Assembly (NCBI RefSeq): GCF_032854445.1
Contig: NC_088307.1
Location: forward strand, 10,478,001 to 10,542,000
Length of the DNA stretch: 64,000 nt
Reading direction: 5' to 3'
Source of the DNA: Liolophura sinensis
Taxonomy: Eukaryota > Mollusca > Polyplacophora > Chitonida > Chitonidae
The notes beneath the pieces are model-generated. The model was not told the DNA's origin, ran no database searches, and saw only the letters and a program-made list of their open reading frames with translations. Positions 44,301-56,141 of this stretch are shown here, one piece after another. Both the position numbers and the translations under genes were made by a program. Numbering within the stretch: position 1 is the first letter of the stretch; every line of letters starts with the position of its first letter.

Positions 44301-47300
44301 CATGTACTGTCAGGCATAGGTCTCAGAATATTGCGTATTGTTCTTCCTTTGACGGCATCATTCTATTTTGTCCTTTAGCCACCGCTGCAGGCCACTAAAG
44401 CGTCACGGTGAACCCATCTCCTCTGAAATGTACATGTACATGTACCATTATGTTGTTGTCTGACTTTGTATTACTGGACAAAATGTTTAACCGTTTGATT
44501 TGAGTTTTTCAGTTGAGAGCAGTTGAGATGAACTGGACGCAAGCATGCATAGATCAGTGGAACTGTATACAACTGGGTGCTTCGAGTCACAAAGGGTTTA
44601 CCAGAAACCAGCAGATTTTATTAGTTTTGTTGGTTTCCTCCCTCCATAATGCTGGCTGCTTTCGTATAAGTGAAATGTTTATGAGTATGGCATAAAACAC
44701 CAATTCACTGAATAATTATCGTGTTTGGTATGTTTTCAGTGGGAGAGTTTGGCGCCTCCCCCAGGTCAAGCTCCGCCCCGTCGTCAGGCCGTCGTCGACC
44801 AGCCATGTTGCATTACAGTCAGCCTACCAAAGGAGTTGATGCGTAAGTTTCTGCTAATTTTGTCTAAAATCTTAATGCTGGTTCTAATTAACTCAAAAGA
44901 AATGGGAGTTTAGTTCAGACTAAAGTTAATATTGCACTTAAGTTCTAATACACTTTTGATCAACTAGACCCTCAGTGAAAAAGGATGAGATTTAGATGTG
45001 TATCTAAATTTATGAAAGAGATCATTCAGAAGTGTAATTGTGCCCTTATCTTGAGGAAATGTCACTTTTTTTTAATAGAGCTGAGATTGAACAGAAATAC
45101 CAAGAGATTATGAAACAGACAGGTATCCTGAATATAGATGGTGAGGTAAGTATTGAGCTTTCTGTGTTAAAGTTTTGACAAAATAGCAGGTTCGTTGAAG
45201 AATCCGTTCGGTGAAATTTTCAGAGCTGGTTTACATTGAAGCTTCCAGCTGTGCCTGTGGTGTTTGTACAAGTAATGTTGAACTGTAAACATATTGAAAT
45301 TTAATAAATTATTCACGAATTTTGAAAATAAAGGTACTGATTACTTATAGTCATGGCGTTGGTAACAGGTAGAATACAGATACACTGATTGGGTTAAAGT
45401 GAATTTTAATTTAGTAAAATGGTATAGACACAGGGTATGGTCCCAAAAGTCACTGGCCCTAAGAAGGTCACCCCATCACATAGTTATTTTGTGATAAGAA
45501 TATAAACTGGTTTACTGTTTATTTTTTAATAATAAAGGAGCTTTTAAATCTTTTTGTTTTCACAAAATTCATCCACACTGTTTATAATATGAAATGGGGG
45601 AACCCCCTTGGCTGAGGGAGGTTAACATACCAGCAAGGCGCAATTGCCAATCCCACCAATGCAGTTGCTAACTGTCACATTGAGTTTAAGTCCAGCTTAT
45701 GCTGGTTTCCTCTCCAGCTGTACATGGTAAGATCTGTTAGCAGCCGATAGTAATAAATAAATATAACTTGATGTCATTAAAAAAATGTCATTATTTGTAT
45801 CTTTCAGAAAATTTCAACATTATTTACCTTTCGGAGAATTCCAACATTATTTCTGTCTTTCAGAAAATTCCAACATTTTTTCTGTTTTTCAGAAAATTCC
45901 AACAGATATCAACGACCTGGAGTCTTTGGGAGAGTTAGGCCATGGCACCTGTGGTCAGGTGATTAAGATGTCGCACAAAAAACACAACTATGTCATGGCC
46001 GTCAAGGTGAGAAAAGCAGCGCTCAATTTTGTTTGTTGTAATTCACCTAAACCTTAGCTTATTTTCAGGACACATTTTGCTAGATTCTTTTTGATTCATC
46101 CACCTTTTAGCGCCATTTAAGCTTTTTTTGTCATGATTGGATAATTTCTCGTCAGGAAAACTCAGGTGATGGCTTCAAAAAGCACATTGTGCCTTACATG
46201 CTTCTGAAGGTACAATTTTAGATATCAAATAGCAGTAGTTTTAATTGATAATCTTTTTTTTTTTTTTTGCAAGAGACATTTATTTCAAGTTTTAATCCTA
46301 TTTATATACATTCATTCATTCTCTGAGAATTTTCCCAAAATGTATTTCTTCAAAGTTTAAATTTTGTTTACTGTAATTCTTCAACCTTTTCCCATGTTTG
46401 CAAGGTGTTTATTCAAGCATATTCTGAAGACATTACTCTGTGTAGACTGATAAAATTACACTTTATAGGAACCTCCAAAAACTAAAAAGGTGCACAAATT
46501 GCACTGACGGCTGCTCTTTTGTATGCAAGAAGGTTGCGGAATGAGGGTACTTATTAGGGTATTCATTGAAGATTATTTTGCGATATGCATTTCTTTCAAG
46601 CCATGCTTTTTCCCACACCTGGAATTGGAAAAATAATCAAAAAAAGTACAGCACAAATGTGGTTAAATGAACATTAAAATATTAATAAATAGCTCAGTAC
46701 CATCACTTGTCGTGTTTAGTAGAAAGTGGATTTTAAGTATTTTTCCCCGTCCTTGTAAATTTATATGGATCAAGGAATCAGAAAAGCCAATGTTGGTTTG
46801 AAAAAAAAACAAAGTAAGTTTCAGCCTTAAAAGATACCTGATCTCTGATGAATGTTTTGTTTTCTTGCTTCTTTTGCAGCAAATGCGACGATCTGGTAAT
46901 CGTGAAGAAAATAAACGTATCATTATGGATCTAGATGTGGTCATCAAGAGTCATGACTGTCCCTACATAGTTCATTGTTTAGGATGCTTTATTACACCCG
47001 TAAGTTATGCTGTAATATAGGCACATATACATTGTACATATTCCAGTCATGACTGCCCCTACATAGTTCATTGTTTAGGATGCTTTATTACACCCGTAAG
47101 TTATGCTGTAATATAGGCACATGTACACTGTACATATTCCAGTCATGACTGTCCCTACATAGTTCATTGTTTAGGATGCTTTATTACACCCGTAAGTTAT
47201 GCTGTAATATAGGCACATATACACTGTACATATTCCAGTCATGACTGTCCCTACATATTTCATTGTTTAGGATGCTTTATTACACCCGTAAGTTATGCTG

Positions 47301-50300
47301 TAATATAGGCACATATACACTGTACATATTCCAGTCATGACTGTCCCTACATAGTTCATTGTTTAGGATGCTTTATTACACCTGTAAGTTATGCTGTAAT
47401 ATAGGCACATATACACTGTTCATATTCCAGTCATGACTGTCCCTACATAGTTCATTGTTTAGGCTGCTTTATTACACCCGTAAGTTATGCTGTAATATAG
47501 GCACATATACACTGTACATATTCCAGTCATGACTGTCCCTACATAGTTCATTGTTTAGGATGCTTTATTACACCCGTAAGTTATGCTGTAATAAAGGCAC
47601 ATATACACTGTACATATTCTAGTCATGACTGTCCCTACATAGTTCATTGTTTAGGCTGCTTTATTACACCCGTAAGTTATGCTGTAATATAGGCACATAT
47701 ACACTGTACATATTCAAGTCATGACTGTCCCTACATAGTTCATTGTTTAGGATGCTTTATTACACCCGTAAGTTATGCTGTAATAAAGGCACATATACAC
47801 TGTACATATTCTAGTCATGACTGTCCCTACATAGTTCATTGTTTAGGATGCTTTATTACACCCGTAAGTTATGCTGTAATATAGGCACATATACATTGTA
47901 CATATTCCAGTCATGACTGTCCCTACATAGTTCATTGTTTAGGATGCTTTATTACACCCGTAAGTTATGCTGTAATATAGGCACATATACATTGTACATA
48001 TTCCAGTCATGACTGTCCCTACATAGTTCATTGTTTAGGATGCTTTATTACACCCGTAAGTTATGCTGTAATAAAGGCACATATACACTGTACATATTCC
48101 AGTCATGACTGTCCCTACATAGTTCATTGTTTAGGATGCTTTATTACACCCGTAAGTTATGCTGTAATATAGGCACATATACATTGTACATATTCAAGTC
48201 ATGACTGTCCCTACATAGTTCATTGTTTAGGATGCTTTATTACACCCGTAAGTTATGCTGTAATAAAGGCACACATACACTGTACATATTCTAGTCATGA
48301 CTGTCCCTACATAGTTCATTGTTTAGGATGCTTTATTACACCCGTAAGTTATGCTGTAATATAGGCACATATACACTGTACCTATTCCAGTCATGACTGT
48401 CCCTACATAGTTCATTGTTTAGGATGCTTTATTACACCTGTAAGTTCGGCTGTGATAGTCACACATGCATATTCCAGTCATGATTGTACCTACATAGTTC
48501 ATTGTATAGGATGCTTTATTACACCCGTAAGTTTGGGTGTAATAGTCACACATACATATTCCAGTCATGATTGTACCTACGTACTTCATTGTTTAGGGTA
48601 CTTTATTACACCAATAAGTTATGCTGTAATAGTCACACATGCATATTCCAGTGATGATTGTACCTACATATGTCATTGTTTACTGTACTTTATTACACCA
48701 ATAAATTACGCTGTAATAGTCACACATGCATATTCCAGTCATGATTGTACCTACGATACTTTCTTGTTCAGAGTACTTTATTACACCAATAAGTTACTCT
48801 GTGATAGTCACACATGCATATTCCAGTCATGATTGTGCCTACATACGTCATTGTTTAGGGTGCTTTATTACACCAATAAGTTACGCTGTAAGAGTCAGAC
48901 ATGCATATTCCAGTCATGATTGTGCCTACATACTTCATTGTTTAGGGTACTTTATTACACCAATAAGTTACGCTGTAAGAGTCACACATGCATATTCCAG
49001 TCATGATTGTACCTGCATACTTCATTGTTTAGGGTGCTTTATTACACCAATAAGTTACGCCGTAATAAAGACACATGCATATTCCAGTCATGATTATACC
49101 TACGTGCTTCATTGTTGTACGGTGCTTTATTACGCCAATAAGTTACGCTGTAATAATGACACGTGCATATTCCAGTCATGATTATACTTACGTACTTCAT
49201 TGTTTAGGATACTTTATTACACCCGTAAGTTTGGCTGTAATAGTCACACATGCATATCTGTGGAGACTTGAACATTTCTACAGGACACAAGACTGAATAA
49301 ATAAGTTTACACAATGCTTTACATATATATATATATATCAGCAAAAAACTGTTTTGAGCAAAAAAGGTTTGAGCATCTCTTCTTTGAATATTCATTTCCA
49401 AGCTATGATGTGTTTTTTTTTTTACAAAAACTTTATTAAAACTGTATTGGTTTAAAGATGAGCAATATACGTCACCTAAAAAACTAAACTACTTAAACTA
49501 AAGACTGTACAACAAAAGCCTTGTGTGGTAATTTCAACTATGCTGTGTTCTGGTTTACACATCAGAGTGAAGTGTGGATCTGTATGGAGTTGATGTCTAC
49601 CTGCCTGGACAAGTTGTTGAAGAGGACACGCATGGCGATTCCAGAGCAAATCTTAGGCAAAATGGCTGTAGCGGTACGTACATACACGGACATGGATAGA
49701 TTTGTTAAATGATTTTGATGTTCATAACGTGAAAATTAAGCTTCATTTTGAAGCCATTCTGTTTTATGCAGAGTTTCCGTCAGCGGTGAGAATATTTGGG
49801 AATGACGTGATGGGGAACACAAAACCTGGTTACATGTGGTACCTTCAGTGTGGACTCTCACCCCAGCAAGTTTTGACAGCTACATGTGTTTCCAAAGTCA
49901 CTGCTGGGGCTTTAGGAAAACTGCATTTTAAAGTCATTTTTACTCCTCAAGAAGAAAGCTGAGAAGTTTTTGTCCTTTTTTCTATGTTCGAACACAACTC
50001 GATATCTAGAAACTAAAAACAGTCATATTGTGTATCCTTCAATATCATTTGAGGAAGTTTTGAACGGGGAAGTTATCTTTACCTCTTGTCTGTTTCAGAT
50101 TGTCAGGGCGTTGCATTACCTGAAAGAGACGCATGGAGTCATACATAGGGGTTTGTCAGTTTCTTGTTTTAATACTTTACATGACAATCCAACACATGAA
50201 GCTCCAAACTTACTAAAGCCTTGTTCTTGCTGCCAACAATACTTTTCCAACCAGTGCGGTTGCAGAGTGGTGTGCAGCCCTTTCTTGGTAACATGCAGCT

Positions 50301-53300
50301 TAAATAAGTTTAGGCCACACCAATTTGTATTTTTGTTTAACAGGCAGAATGACTTTTTTCCTCAATGTTTGCGGAGGGTATAAAAATGAAAATAAAACCT
50401 ACTATTAACTGTCCCTGCTATTCTTCCTCTTAAAGTCATGTTTACTTGATCAGAAACCTGTAAGAAACAGGAAAATCATAAAAATGCTCATATCAGTTAA
50501 ACTAAGAAGGGAATTTTCAATGTTTTTTTCCATTCCATTTTCAATTCCCAAGCTTTTTACATTGTTATTGTTGATTTCAGTTTGGAGACAAAAACTGCAT
50601 CAATTGGTTTAGCAAATTTCATGGTTTCTCAAAAAGTATAATTTTATCAGTCTACACAGAATAATGCTTTCAGAATATGCTTGAAGAAACACCTTACAAA
50701 CATGTGAAAAGGTTGAAGAATTACAGTAATTTGTGGGAAATGTAGATTGTCCCTGATGTTCTTCCTCTAAAAAACATGTTAACTGGAAAATCTTAAAAAT
50801 GTCCATGTAAAGCAAAACAAAAACCTGTATTTTGAATTTTTTTATATTCCTTTTCTAGATATTTTTGGTCTCGGCTCACTTGTAAAACCTAAAATGAAAT
50901 TCTTGTTGCCTTAAGCAGGTGTGCCTGGCACCTGACAAAGTGCGATAATTTACAGCAAATACTTGTGTTTTCTCTGCTTAGAAATCTGACTGCCGCTGTA
51001 CATGCACAGTAAGCTGTCTTTCGTAACAGTTGTTTCAGTAGTAGGGGTCTTGTCCTAGGATTCACTCCAATAGTTACGCGAAAATAACGGGAATTCAGCT
51101 AAAGAGACAAGCCCTTCAGTCCGTTTATGTTTAATTCTTTTGCACTGTTTCAGATGTTAAGCCTTCAAATATCTTGTTAGATGAGAAGGGTACGGTAAAG
51201 CTGTGTGATTTTGGAATAAGTGGTAGACTTGTGGATTCCAAGGCGAAAACCAGAAGTGCTGGCTGCGCGGCATACATGGCTGTGAGTTGGATTATCTCCC
51301 CTTGACCGTGTTCTTCATCAGAGCTCTCTTTACCATTCAACTAAATTAAATGTTGAGGTCTATTTTCAACAATTTCTGATATTTAACTCAACATTTAATC
51401 CTGGAACTAGAAAATCTCATTGGGCCTTATTTTAGGGTCCCTTGCAGAACAGTGCTGGCCTTAAAACTTAATGTAAAGCAGCACAGTCACACCATTTTAA
51501 GAGAATGTGACCATCTTGATCACTTCAGCAAGTCTTAATATCCATTCTCGACTGGTTACATCGAGGAAAACTCCACTAAAATATCCATTTCTCTTCAAAA
51601 TCCAGCTTCCCCCGGGCTCTGCCCGGTTTCCACCCACCATAATGCTGGCCGCCGTCGTATGAGTGAAATATTCTTGAGTACGGCGTAAAACACCAATCAA
51701 ATAAATAAATGAATCAAAATCCAGCAACCTGCAGATGGTCGCCCTACCCAATTTCTCCCTCCATAAATGCTGGACGCCACCATATAAGGGACATATTCTT
51801 GAGTACGACGTAAAACACCAATCAGATACCTAAAACCACTTTTTGCAGTCATGATGCATCAGGTTTTCCCCATTCCTGACATAAAGTCTGTCCTGCATCA
51901 ACAATTGAAGGAACGCAGAATTTGTAACCGAACAGGAGGGATACCCTCTCCACTATAAACTCTCATCGCCTATGTCTTGTAAACTTCCCGATGCATTTAC
52001 AAGAGTTCTCAAAGCTATATCATTGGGTTTCCTTCTGATTTCCTCCCACCATAATGCTGCAGGTCCCGCTATAAAACTGAACGGAGAATGTTTCTCTACT
52101 ACGGAAACATTGGCAGTAGAGGGACATAGGTGCTGAATTACATTACACATTGTTGCTGTTCACTGACAAGAAACAGGGAAAGACAACTCTAGGCTACCTG
52201 CTAAAGGGAGTTGGCGAAGGTTAGGGGGGCAGTTGTTGTGTGTGAAGATTGAATTGCTGACTGAAACATTATGGAAGAACAGAAAACTTATAACCATGTA
52301 AATCTGATGTTTGTTTACAGCCAGAAAGAATTGAACCTCCGGATCCCAAGAAACCAGACTATGACATCAGAGCAGATGTTTGGAGTTTAGGAATTTCTTT
52401 GGTAAGATTAGTCCTGGGTTTGAGAATGTAATGCTGTATTGAATTGACATGAAGCATTGAAGCCATGTGGTACATGTACGCTGGTCATGCCTTGTTTCAC
52501 CAGTCTGAAATTTGTATCATACGGTAAGCTTCTAGTGTCAGTGCTTTGTTTCACCAGTCTGAAACTTTGTATCATGTGGTAAGCTTCTTGTGGCAATGCT
52601 TTGTTTCACCAATCTGAAACTTTGTATCATGTGGTAAGCTTCTTGTGGCAATGCTTTGTTTCACCAATCTGAAACTTTGTATCATGTGGTAAGCTTCTTG
52701 TGGCAATGCTTTGTTTCACCAATCTGAAACTTTGTATCATGTGGTAAGCTTCTTGTGGCAATGCTTTGTTTCACCAATCTGAAACTTTGTATCATGTGGT
52801 AAGCTTCTTGTGGCAATGCTTTGTTTCACCAATCTGAAACTTTGTATCATGTGGTAAGCTTCTAGTGGCAGTGCTTTGTTTCACCAGTCTGAAACTTTGT
52901 ATCATGTGGTAAGCTTCTAGTGACAGTGCTTTGTTTCACCAGTCTGAAACTTTGTATCATGTGGTAGGCTTCTTGTGGCAGTGCTTTGTTTCACCAGTCG
53001 GAAACTTTGTATCATGTGGTAAGCTTCTAGTGGCAATGCTTTGTTTCACCAGTCTGAAACTTTGTATCATGTGGTAAGCTTCTAGTGGCAGTGCTTTGTT
53101 TCACCAATCTGAAACTTTGTATCATGTGGGAAGCTGGTAATGCTTGGTAGTATGGAAATATTTTCACACCTATCTTGACTTTTAATTCTCGAAAAGCGTC
53201 CTACCCCATGCCACATTGTCATTATGACATATCTTACTTGTATTTAGTCAGTGACAACTTCATTGGGATTTGCTGTGTTCGTTTTTGTTATTGTATCACT

Positions 53301-56141
53301 CTGTCTGTAGAACAGAGGATAAAAACCCAGTTTTAATATAACTCTGGTTACTTTAAAGAGGCTATAATGAAGATTTTTGGCAAAAAATTCACATTCGATT
53401 AATCAAATAAAATTTTCTGATACCAAAAATACCTGAAATTATTGCCTTCCAGTAAATATCGGACTCTTATCTCAGTGTGCTAAAATAATTCAAACATTTG
53501 ACAAATATTTTAATATGACCTGCTTTATAACTTTTAGAATTTTGTTACCGATTTTGAACGGTCAAGTGCAAAGAGCGAGGTTAATATTTTGTGAAAGGTC
53601 TTGGATTGTTCCCAAATGATAGCAAAAATTTGATCGGATTTGCACAGATAAATTTTTGGCTAAAAAAGGTCAGGTGTTGCTTCTTTAAATATGTAGCTTT
53701 TCTGCCAATATTTGTATATGTTGTCTTTTACCTTTGTTCAGGTGGAATTGGCCACAGGGGAATTCCCATACAAAGGATGTAAGACAGATTTTGAGGTTCT
53801 CTCAAAGGTCATACAGGAAGACCCACCTCGTCTCCCCCCAGGAAATGGATTTACCCTAAATTTCTATTCCTTCGTTACAGACTGGTATGTACCATTTGGA
53901 TCACAGGGCATGCTGTTGTTTTCCTAGTTCAGAAAGGTAGCTATCATTCATTCATACAGATGGATGGGCCATCATTGTATTCATTGTTTCCTGTTGCTAG
54001 TAATTTTTCAGATATATCTTAGAATTATATCACTTTTATTTGCTTTTTTTGTCATATTATTACATAAATCCAAGGGAAAAAATCTTTTGTTTCACATTTT
54101 GATGTTAGAATGGCAAGATTTTATCTGTTGAAGTTTTGATATGGGTAACAAATGTAAACTGTTGGAGAAGTTTTGTGCCCATTGGTGAGGGAGACAAATT
54201 CTCCTAGCACAGGACACAAACTTGCAGGTGATGCCTGTGGATTTTAAATTTTTACACAGATTTAAGACTTTGCAAATAAGCTAGGTACACCCCCCCCCAC
54301 CCCCCAACAATTTTGTCATTCACTTTGCAAAGGGAAACTACTACATTTTTGAAACTACAGTCAAACTCTGCGATTATCTCCCCTTATGTGAGATCGCAAT
54401 CTAACAACAATTTGTTACATATGACACAAAGAACTGAAAAAATATTCAGTTCCGTGTTACTCAACTGACCCTAGAGATTTTTGGGTGACCCGGAATGTTT
54501 TTTACGATCTCAAGTAAGGGGGGATTTTGTTTAGTCAGGAGGAGTTAACCTCCTCTTGCCCTGCCATCTCTTAGTGTCTGCCCAAAAGTACCCAAGTGTT
54601 ATTATGCATTTCTTCTGCAGTTTGACAAAAGACTATAGGAAGAGACCAAAATACAAAAAACTTTTGGTAAGTACTGCATCAGTTGTACAAAACATTTCTT
54701 TTACTTTTTGTTTGATTATTGTTAATTCTGTTCTTGTGAATTTTTTAACTTGGTTGATCACGGCAATTTTTATTTGCGAAGGAAACACATTAAAATATGG
54801 TCATGATAATGCAGTCATTGGATTTGCACATCCCTAAGCTCACAACTGCTTTTCAATTATATCTTGTGCCTTGCTTACATGTTTGAGGTTAGCAGCTGAC
54901 TGAGTGGCTAAAATTGTCAAATAGAGCACATGTATATCACTTTATGTTTCAATCAGTTGGTTGTGTTTAAAGACATGTTAAACACAAAGCAAACAAACTG
55001 AACGAGTTAGTCATCAGGCCCTGGGAGCATGAAGCAAACATAAGTCAAAATTGATTTGTATGGTCCTATTTGTTATTTTTAGCCGAAATTTGTTTTACAA
55101 TAACTCACCCAGAATTTACAATGTCAAGCAATATTTTGACCTTGTTAGGTAAGAAGTAACAGTTTTAAAGTGATTTGAAATTTTGACTTCTGAGTCTAGA
55201 ATCGCTTGGAGAACCTGAGGCTAGGAACTTGATGACTTAATTTAATGATATCTTTATTAAGTAGACTGTAATAAACGTACTAACATTGTTATTTATGTAG
55301 GTATAGAAACATATTCTAACACCATTCATGTTGCTAAATCATAGATGTAATGTCCTTTTATATCATTTTGAGCTGGTATTTTTCGCTTGTGTCTTGAATG
55401 GCTTAAATTCTCTACAAATTCGACTAGTAAAATATAACTTTAGATGCAGTATGAAAACATAAATCATTAAATTTGAAGATTATGATATACTCTTTAGGTA
55501 GGGGCACATGAAAACCTCACAGAAATTATGTATTTTAATACCCGTTCATATCAGAGAACATTCCTCCATTATACCAAAACATACATTTGTTTGTGGTTGA
55601 ATTTGTTCAGGATTTAGCGTAATTTCAAAACCAGAAAATGTAAACTGGAGACTTTTTTTTTTACAATCAGCACAAATCCATTCAAAGTTTTTGTATTATT
55701 TTTAGAACAGCTCATATAATTACCTTTCAGAAAGCCTCAACCTCATCTTTACATGTTACCCTTCAAAATCAATGCCCAAGTTTCTAAAAGTTATAAAACG
55801 AGTTGCATCATAACTTTGAAATTTTTGAATCATTTTCACTCTATAAATGGTACAAGTGTGGATGTGATATTTACTGGAAGGCAATGATTTGAGCTGTACG
55901 TCGCGAATACAGAAAATTAGATTTGATAACCTAGTATGGAATTTTTGCCCCAATTCTGTGGTATAGTCTTTTAGCCAACATTTTCCAAAATTGTATTAAA
56001 TTGACTCTGACGGATTTCCCTCATCACCATTTGCAGGAACACAACTTTATCCGACACTACTCCTCCAAGAATGTGGACGTGGCGTCGTGGTTCGCTGACG
56101 TGAAGATTTTAATAGACCAATATCCAGGCAGGGTCTCGTGA
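41318..56141 (+). CDS. MAP2K7: MAP kinase kinase 7 (JNK kinase), 12 exons
   Basis: Dual-specificity kinase that activates JNK under stress and cytokine signalling. Exons: 41318-41450, 44740-44842, 45079-45145, 45893-46006, 46880-46999, 49566-49673, 50099-50150, 51154-51281, 52321-52401, 53742-53884, 54621-54666, 56037-56141; 1,200 bp, 399 codons, all GT-AG and in phase (human about 419). The N-terminus has JNK-docking-like motifs, RTRHLDLNV (about 27-35) and RRRPAML (62-68). IEQKYQEIMKQTG is the conserved MKK7 pre-kinase segment. Glycine loop GHGTCGQV 117-124; catalytic Lys139 (MAVK); HRD 231-233, split between exons 7 and 8; DFG 251-253; activation loop S261-K-A-K-T265, the dual phosphorylation sites of MKK7; APE-equivalent APER; C-terminal docking (DVD) region VDVASWFADV. 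ATG context CGAAAATGG is adequate. Oddities are in the introns: a tandem array growing out of exon 5, and copied acceptors before exon 4. Confidence 0.97.
42256..42524 (-). mobile_element. SINE family A, full-length, in MAP2K7 intron 1
   Basis: Flanked by TACCAAATAATG (42244-42255) and TACCAATTAATG (42525-42536), a target-site duplication with one substitution. Complete tail, core and head. The rest of intron 1 (42537-44627) shows no gene. Confidence 0.93.
44628..44717 (+). mobile_element. SINE family A 3' fragment next to MAP2K7 exon 2
   Basis: CCATAATGCTGGCTGCTTTC, GTATAAGTGAAATGTTTATG and AAAACACCAATTCACTGAAT. It ends about 22 bp before the exon 2 acceptor, so it overlaps the normal branch-point region of that intron. 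Confidence 0.8.
45596..45768 (+). mobile_element. SINE family A, diverged copy before MAP2K7 exon 4
   Basis: Head CCCTTGGCTGAGGGAGGTTA, B-box region CACATTGAGTTTAAGTCCAG, CTTATGCTGGTTTCCTCTCC, then a deletion straight to AATAAATAAATA. Old copy, about 125 bp upstream of the exon. Confidence 0.75.
45800..45905 (+). promoter_or_regulatory. Tandemly copied 3' splice site of MAP2K7 exon 4
   Basis: The polypyrimidine tract, CAG and first 12 or so exon bases (TTTCAGAAAATTCCAACA) occur four times, with the AG-bearing triplets at 45805, 45832, 45861 and 45890. Copies 1, 3 and 4 keep CAG; copy 2 has CGG. Only the last (exon from 45893) gives the conserved reading frame KIPTDINDLESLG. Using copy 3 adds 29 nt and copy 1 adds 85 nt, and both shift the frame. 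Confidence 0.85.
46366..46475 (+). repeat. Left arm of an inverted repeat bracketing MAP2K7 exons 5-7
   Basis: In intron 4. ACTGTAATTCTTCAACCTTT, GTTTATTCAAGCATATTCTG and GTGTAGACTGATAAAATTA are the near-exact reverse complement of 50620-50733 in intron 7. By eye the arms are about 90% identical over 100 bp. Confidence 0.85.
46951..49255 (+). repeat. Exon-derived tandem array: MAP2K7 exon 5 end plus its splice donor, 25 units
   Basis: Unit 1 is the real exon end (46951-46999) with its donor GTAAGT at 47000. Units 1-16 start every 96 bp exactly (46951, 47047, ... 48391). Units 17-25 start at 48478, 48565, 48652, 48739, 48827, 48914, 49001, 49088 and 49176, a period of 87-88 bp. Each unit repeats 49 exon bases (TCATGACTGTCCCTACATAG ... 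TTATTACACCC), the donor and about 40 bp of intron ending CATATTCCAG, itself an acceptor-like end. Donor GTAAGT is intact in units 1-17 and 25; units 18-24 have CCAATAAGT or a similar sequence and lack GT. The array fills most of intron 5 (47000-49565). Confidence 0.97.
50620..50733 (-). repeat. Right arm of the inverted repeat bracketing MAP2K7 exons 5-7
   Basis: In intron 7. It reads ATTTTATCAGTCTACACAGA and GGTTGAAGAATTACAGTAAT, the reverse complement of 46366-46475. The arms are about 4.1 kb apart and enclose exons 5, 6 and 7 and the exon-5 array. Confidence 0.85.
51607..51713 (+). mobile_element. SINE family A, 5'-truncated, with target-site duplication; nested
   Basis: TCAAAATCCAGC occurs at 51595-51606 and 51714-51725. 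Between them are CCCCCGGGCTCTGCCCGGTT, the body end, core and AAATAAATAAAT tail, with little divergence. It is inserted at the left edge of an older copy (51721-51826). MAP2K7 intron 8. Confidence 0.92.
51721..51826 (+). mobile_element. SINE family A, older truncated copy
   Basis: CCAGCAACCTGCAGATGGTC starts inside the body; the CGTGGGTTTCC part is altered, then CCATAAATGCTGGACGCCAC, CTTGAGTACGACGTAAAACA and CCAATCAGATA. It is more diverged than the copy inserted at its left edge. A further eroded piece lies at about 52028-52075 (TTCCTCCCACCATAATGCTG). Confidence 0.85.
52470..53137. repeat. 55-bp tandem repeat, 12 copies, after MAP2K7 exon 9
   Basis: GGTAAGCTTC recurs at 52523, 52578, 52633, 52688, 52743, 52798, 52853, 52908, 52963 (GGTAGG), 53018, 53073 and 53128 (GGGAAG). 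The unit also contains CTTTGTTTCACCAATCTGAA and ACTTTGTATCATGTGGTAAG. ATGTGGTAAG is a good donor-like match repeated about ten times. The array starts about 70-120 bp downstream of the true donor at 52402. Confidence 0.95.
53352..53689 (+). mobile_element. Non-autonomous TIR element, TTTAAAGAGGC family, copy 2
   Basis: Left end TTTAAAGAGGCTATAATGAA; right end GTGTTGCTTCTTTAAA; the outer 10-12 bp are inverted and imperfect. Interior AATTATTGCCTTCCAGTAAA is shared with the copy at 55660-55975 in the opposite orientation. Its right end lies about 50 bp before the exon 10 acceptor. Confidence 0.65.
55660..55975 (-). mobile_element. TTTAAAGAGGC-family element, copy 3, ends eroded
   Basis: In minus orientation it reads CTAAAAGACTATACCACAGA, GGCAAAAATTCCATAC, then ATTGCCTTCCAGTAAATATC, which matches copy 2. 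The left boundary is uncertain. It lies in MAP2K7 intron 11, about 60 bp from the last exon. Confidence 0.5.

Follow-up and report, generated by a model that had tools for sequence, protein, structure and literature searches.

A coding exon of the chiton Liolophura sinensis is followed by a tandem array in which the end of the exon and its splice donor are repeated many times. The question raised by this locus is how such an array arose and whether the copies matter for the splicing of the host gene. The array is very probably a neutral minisatellite of the boundary-spanning type known as 'mirage', anchored on a functional MKK7 exon. Analyses were performed on the window (i.e. the whole stretch of 64,000 nt) and on the genome (609,464,459 bases in 632 contigs).

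The host gene was identified with the exon pair 46880-46999 and 49566-49673. Twelve of its 57 PDB matches were MKK7 and these ranked as the top 12 (best E 6.1e-32), in agreement with the MAP2K7 (MKK7) identity given in the original prediction. At least three coding exons were detected by tblastn upstream of exon 46880-46999, and a human MKK7 probe gave more exons on both sides of the pair. Eight exons (45893-54666) separated by GT-AG introns were modelled; once joined, they form an open frame of 264 codons. The exon that seeds the array (46880-46999, +; gene model and PDB MKK7 matches) encodes 40 codons of the kinase domain. It is followed by the array-bearing intron (47000-49565, +; gene model), 2,258 bp of whose 2,566 bp are array, and by the next MKK7 exon (49566-49673, +; gene model and PDB match). 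No second MKK7 gene was seen: two of the 20 matches of the exon pair are on contigs other than that of the window (53% and 47% identity; E 3.3e-5 and 3.9e-4). In the same assembly, G000:C99 (108,685 bases) contains seven COX1 matches (Pfam), one of them partial, about 15.5 kb apart, and G000:C632 (15,209 bases) contains one; C99 has the appearance of mitochondrial genomes in head-to-tail order, perhaps concatenated during assembly. The order of the mitochondrial genes, which apart from COX1 were named by eye from their translations, fits that of chitons. Minisatellites are abundant in the window, 25 merged arrays with a period of 12 or more making up 17.4% of positions 1-64000. A dispersed repeat of about 80-100 bp was also noticed at ~49889-49997: 39 of the 40 matches listed for the right flank (40 of 225 candidates scored) are elsewhere in the genome, most of them in that stretch, and this distribution is SINE-like. 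An Rfam scan of the window gave no match.

The array was delimited with TRF, which reported a 96-bp array at 46949-49242 (24.7 copies, 92% matches, score 3121) and a second, overlapping array with an 87-bp period at 48383-49257. Splitting into units gave 25 tandem units between 46949 and 49257, each made up of 51 bp from the end of the exon, the donor position and the first part of the intron. Unit 1 (46949-47044, +; unit split and reading frame) contains the functional exon end (46949-46999), the working donor, whose GT begins at 47000, and the intron start. Units 2-15 (47045-48388, +; unit split) are 96 bp long like unit 1 and all carry GTAAGT. The next units (u16-u25; 48389-49257, +; unit split) are shorter, 87-88 bp for u16-u24 and 84 bp for u25, which is cut off, and GTAAGT is found in three of these ten (u16, u17 and u25). 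The motif is thus present in 18 of the 25 units (u01-u17 and u25), and in u18-u24 the GT is lost, the sequence there being AATAAGT or AATAAAT. At the unit junctions, the intron sequence GCATAT meets the exon sequence AGTCATG with about three extra bases in between. Counted by eye, AG is kept at all 24 junctions and CATATTCCAG is exact at 18 of them. An array of 25 units grown out of a coding exon, with 18 intact donor copies, had been proposed from the first look at this DNA, and both points were borne out. Some details need correction. The copied exon end is 49 bp long after the AG, as proposed, but 51 bp when the would-be acceptor AG is counted; 16 unit starts are in 96-bp phase, but only 15 units are 96 bp long; an acceptor-like AG is indeed present at each junction, but the exact CATATTCCAG proposed for every unit is restricted to the 18 junctions above. 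When the older part of the array was used as a DNA query, five matches were obtained, none of them outside the array. Neither this query nor that of the right flank revealed a second haplotype.

Two blocks of different age can be recognized. The mean pairwise difference is 2.7% within u01-u15, 12.8% within u16-u25 and 16.8% between the two groups. The low value of the 96-bp block fits the recent spread or homogenization that had been suggested for it. Units u10 and u11 are identical to u01 over 96 of 96 bp; since the working exon end has two exact copies inside the array, this end is either the source of the turnover or involved in it. By eye, u06-u07 and u08-u09 resemble a copied pair. Identity to the functional boundary drops with distance (rho -0.76, 24 copies; the units share ancestry, so that the p-value is only a guide). 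In the old block, the exonic parts differ by 12.7% and the intronic parts by 13.0%. In the young block, exonic variation (1.3%) is lower than intronic variation (4.2%), which counts against a neutral reading, on few changes. Nonsynonymous changes make up 13 of the 20 distinct exonic changes, with 75-80% expected (p 0.09-0.31; 23 of 25 units, the other two containing indels). Again on few changes, the array copies are under no clear constraint. Within the MKK7 array, 17 of the 24 copies retain GT, below the 21.4 expected from neighbouring mismatch; the seven losses are all in adjacent units and probably represent one event.

Predicted splicing products were then considered. Use of any of the 17 downstream GTAAGT donors tested would lengthen the mRNA by 96 to 2,225 nt and would bring a stop, the TAG of unit 1, as the seventh codon past the exon; added stop codons had been anticipated for such donors in the original prediction. 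Single inclusions of mini-exons were tested for 17 units; in all of them TCA TGA is read in frame, so that the stop is the second added codon. A 49-bp unit had been expected to shift the frame: the frame is indeed broken, but by more than a shift. The mini-introns would measure 47 nt, or 38 nt before u17. With all tested downstream donors and mini-exons, a stop is reached by the seventh codon at the latest. Productive mRNA is therefore expected to rely on the first donor, the only one to leave the frame open among the tested products. This fits the rule that, between large flanking introns, the sites nearest to each other across the exon are preferred (PMC9225289). Human genes contain many usable unannotated intronic splice sites (PMC10809524), and low-level use of decoys in the MKK7 array is possible.

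A smaller array of the same type was found at the preceding MKK7 exon. About four copies of a 29-bp unit containing a pyrimidine tract, AG and the first bases of the exon (45789-45904, +; TRF and sequence) end in exon 45893-46006 (+; gene model and tblastn), whose acceptor is the 3'-most copy. This copy continues the frame. AG is kept in two of the three upstream copies, and use of the nearest one would shift the frame. Another MKK7 intron, the next but three, contains a 55-bp array (52487-53135; 11.8 copies according to TRF). Most of its units have a donor-like GTAAGC (by eye), and it holds no copy of the exon end at 52401.

The recurrence of such arrays in other genes was surveyed at 30 myosin-head loci (PF00063, among 81 matches listed) and 30 kinesin-motor loci (PF00225, among 132 listed). 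The union of these loci covers 178,411 bases and 98 of the 213 matches, hence 196 edges; these are the best-scoring matches and not a random sample. The edges are the ends of family matches rather than mapped splice sites, and cases may be missed. The recurrence test flagged 17 of the 196 edges. Twelve of the 17 were inspected, plus one edge from a TRF screen; the flagged edges outside the inspection (L011, L025 donor, L046, L055 and L056) have one weak match each. Boundary-spanning arrays were accepted by eye at 8 of the 196 edges, seven from the flagged set and L025 from the TRF screen. Five are donor arrays (L016, L019, L023, L031 and L054) and three are acceptor arrays (L025, L039 and L041). 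Locus L054, with 20 further copies of the donor and of some 54 bp preceding it in the exon, is much like MKK7. On inspection, the L065 and L029 donors were rejected, as was the L022 donor, for which a second look gave no match. The L037 acceptor was dropped (the array stops short of the acceptor), the L029 acceptor was left uncounted (a single distant duplicate) and the array at L015 lies near an exon but has no copied exon end. A further donor mirage, outside the 98 counted matches, was seen in L066 (positions 1-361; G000:C1:26644400-26644760), where a myosin exon end is followed by 31-bp units with a donor-like GTAAGT and an acceptor-like AG.

Uniform birth of arrays predicts that about 0.9% of the edges (1.7 of 196) would be affected, as calculated from the number and unit lengths of the merged arrays (57 in 194,526 bases, counting overlaps). 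The Poisson probability of eight or more edges is 4e-4, in a test devised after the data had been seen, and the excess of arrays at exon edges is a lead. The eight surveyed arrays and the two of MKK7 were pooled: the splice dinucleotides mismatch in 35 of 352 positions and their neighbours in 408 of 4,491 (p 0.57). Donor copies of six arrays (n = 104) were scored with a human matrix; 61 are weaker than their own working donor, 41 equal and 2 stronger. Decay explains the weaker copies; selection against decoys would explain them too. The correlation between distance and identity is negative in seven of the nine testable arrays (p < 0.05 for three of them); in L016 and L041, identity rises weakly with distance. 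We tentatively consider, as a possibility with the balance against it, that minisatellites arise preferentially at exon edges in the chiton genome, the working exon being a protected master copy that reseeds the array while introns grow outward like a conveyor belt. If this were true, intron growth by mirages would be pervasive and would have had separate origins in chitons and amphioxus.

Other explanations of the MKK7 array have to be weighed against neutrality. The copies could tune splicing, decoy donors and poison mini-exons sending a share of the transcripts to nonsense-mediated decay and the number of units setting MKK7 output. The early stop brought by every tested decoy use, the retention of GTAAGT in 18 of 25 units and the abundance of usable unannotated sites in human introns (PMC10809524) speak for this explanation. 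We consider it improbable, since GT is gone from old units, splice dinucleotides decay like their neighbours, other genes carry similar arrays and the mini-introns are just 38 or 47 nt long. The tuning of MKK7 output put forward in the original prediction finds no support here: like arrays occur at 8 of 196 surveyed edges and at the preceding MKK7 acceptor, and the evolution of the copies resembles that of sequence free of constraint.

Intron gain in progress, in which internal mini-exons would turn into new exons (a process proposed for the globins of amphioxus in PMC3087553), is less probable still. AG at 24 of 24 junctions and a donor in 18 of 25 units would provide the sites, but all 17 single mini-exons tested start with TCA TGA in frame and further mutations would be needed. 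Least credible is an array collapsed, expanded or misjoined during assembly. Purge and scaffolding steps were indeed used to make the assembly (PMC11068029), but the units show structured differences with an old and a young block, other loci have like arrays, and the mean HiFi read of 8,347 bp, at 14x (PMC11068029), is longer than the 2.3-kb array. The MKK7 array is a genuine mirage of recent origin that is anchored on an exon and most likely neutral, and the genome contains further arrays of this type.

A history of this neutral mirage can be proposed. A duplication would have brought intron GCATAT next to AGTCATG within the exon, with a few filler bases in between, and so created a tandem unit of ~87 bp in which the exon end, the donor and the first part of the intron are combined. 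The extra bases of the junction are such as end joining might leave. Copies may then have been added by unequal exchange or slippage, and next to the exon a variant longer by 9 bp, functional exon end included, would have undergone a recent expansion. The functional exon end, i.e. the first unit, would be the sole copy whose coding sequence is needed and would be retained while the others drift. By exon definition, which would favour the shortest exon, the first donor would be paired with the acceptor of its own exon, and the decoys would be removed with the intron.

By itself the MKK7 array is of little weight; the wider mollusc pattern is more interesting. It extends an amphioxus curiosity to a distant phylum, one chiton genome having several such arrays. 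With many near-identical sites next to a single working one, such arrays offer natural experiments on the choice of splice sites, in which decoy strength and distance vary and the context is constant. The route proposed from mirages to new introns also becomes testable.

Intron gain by tandem duplication (the Rogers model; reportedly also the subject of Zhuo et al. 2007; see PMC2812944 for changes driven by human minisatellites) resembles the MKK7 case in the intragenic tandem duplication of a sequence with splice signals. Such a gain would create an intron absent from relatives; the MKK7 copies sit within the flanking intron. Changes in human minisatellites activate cryptic splice sites (PMC2812944). 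The dual-specific array of human UBC (PMC10809524) also has tandem units with a potential splice site in each. In UBC, however, the units form part of the coding sequence and one site acts as both donor and acceptor (PMC10809524), whereas inclusion of an MKK7 unit gives a stop. The MKK7 donor, CCC/GTAAGT, has no AG before the GT as in a dual-specific AG/GT site, AG and GT being 49 nt apart in the unit. Intronic minisatellites are described in earthworm metallothionein genes, and no boundary copy is named in the portion of PMC12783039 consulted.

The closest counterparts are the amphioxus mirages. The original prediction knew of no described case of this form, but boundary-spanning minisatellites are known in amphioxus Adh3 and globins (PMC3087553) and in troponin C and PGBD5, added by PMC3902484. 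A literature search limited to open-licence papers found no mirage outside cephalochordates, which is weak evidence. For the amphioxus mirages, which reportedly leave splicing undisturbed (PMC3087553, PMC3902484), RT-PCR suggested regular splicing, and a route to new introns was proposed from those of the globins (PMC3087553). Like the arrays of Adh3, BflGb6, BflGb9, troponin C and PGBD5, that of MKK7 consists of boundary-spanning units that repeat the splice site, with the functional copy at the exon edge: all 25 units span the exon-intron boundary including the splice-site position, the rest of the copies are intronic, and only the first donor continues the frame among the tested sites. Its units of 84-96 bp are within the published range, between the 10-72 bp of Adh3 and the 150-160 bp of BflGb6 (PMC3087553). 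Donor and acceptor versions and turnover inside the array occur in amphioxus as in the chiton. The host is different, a mollusc instead of a cephalochordate, and so is the number of units, 25 in MKK7 compared with 6 and 3 in the two haplotypes of BflGb6 (PMC3087553).
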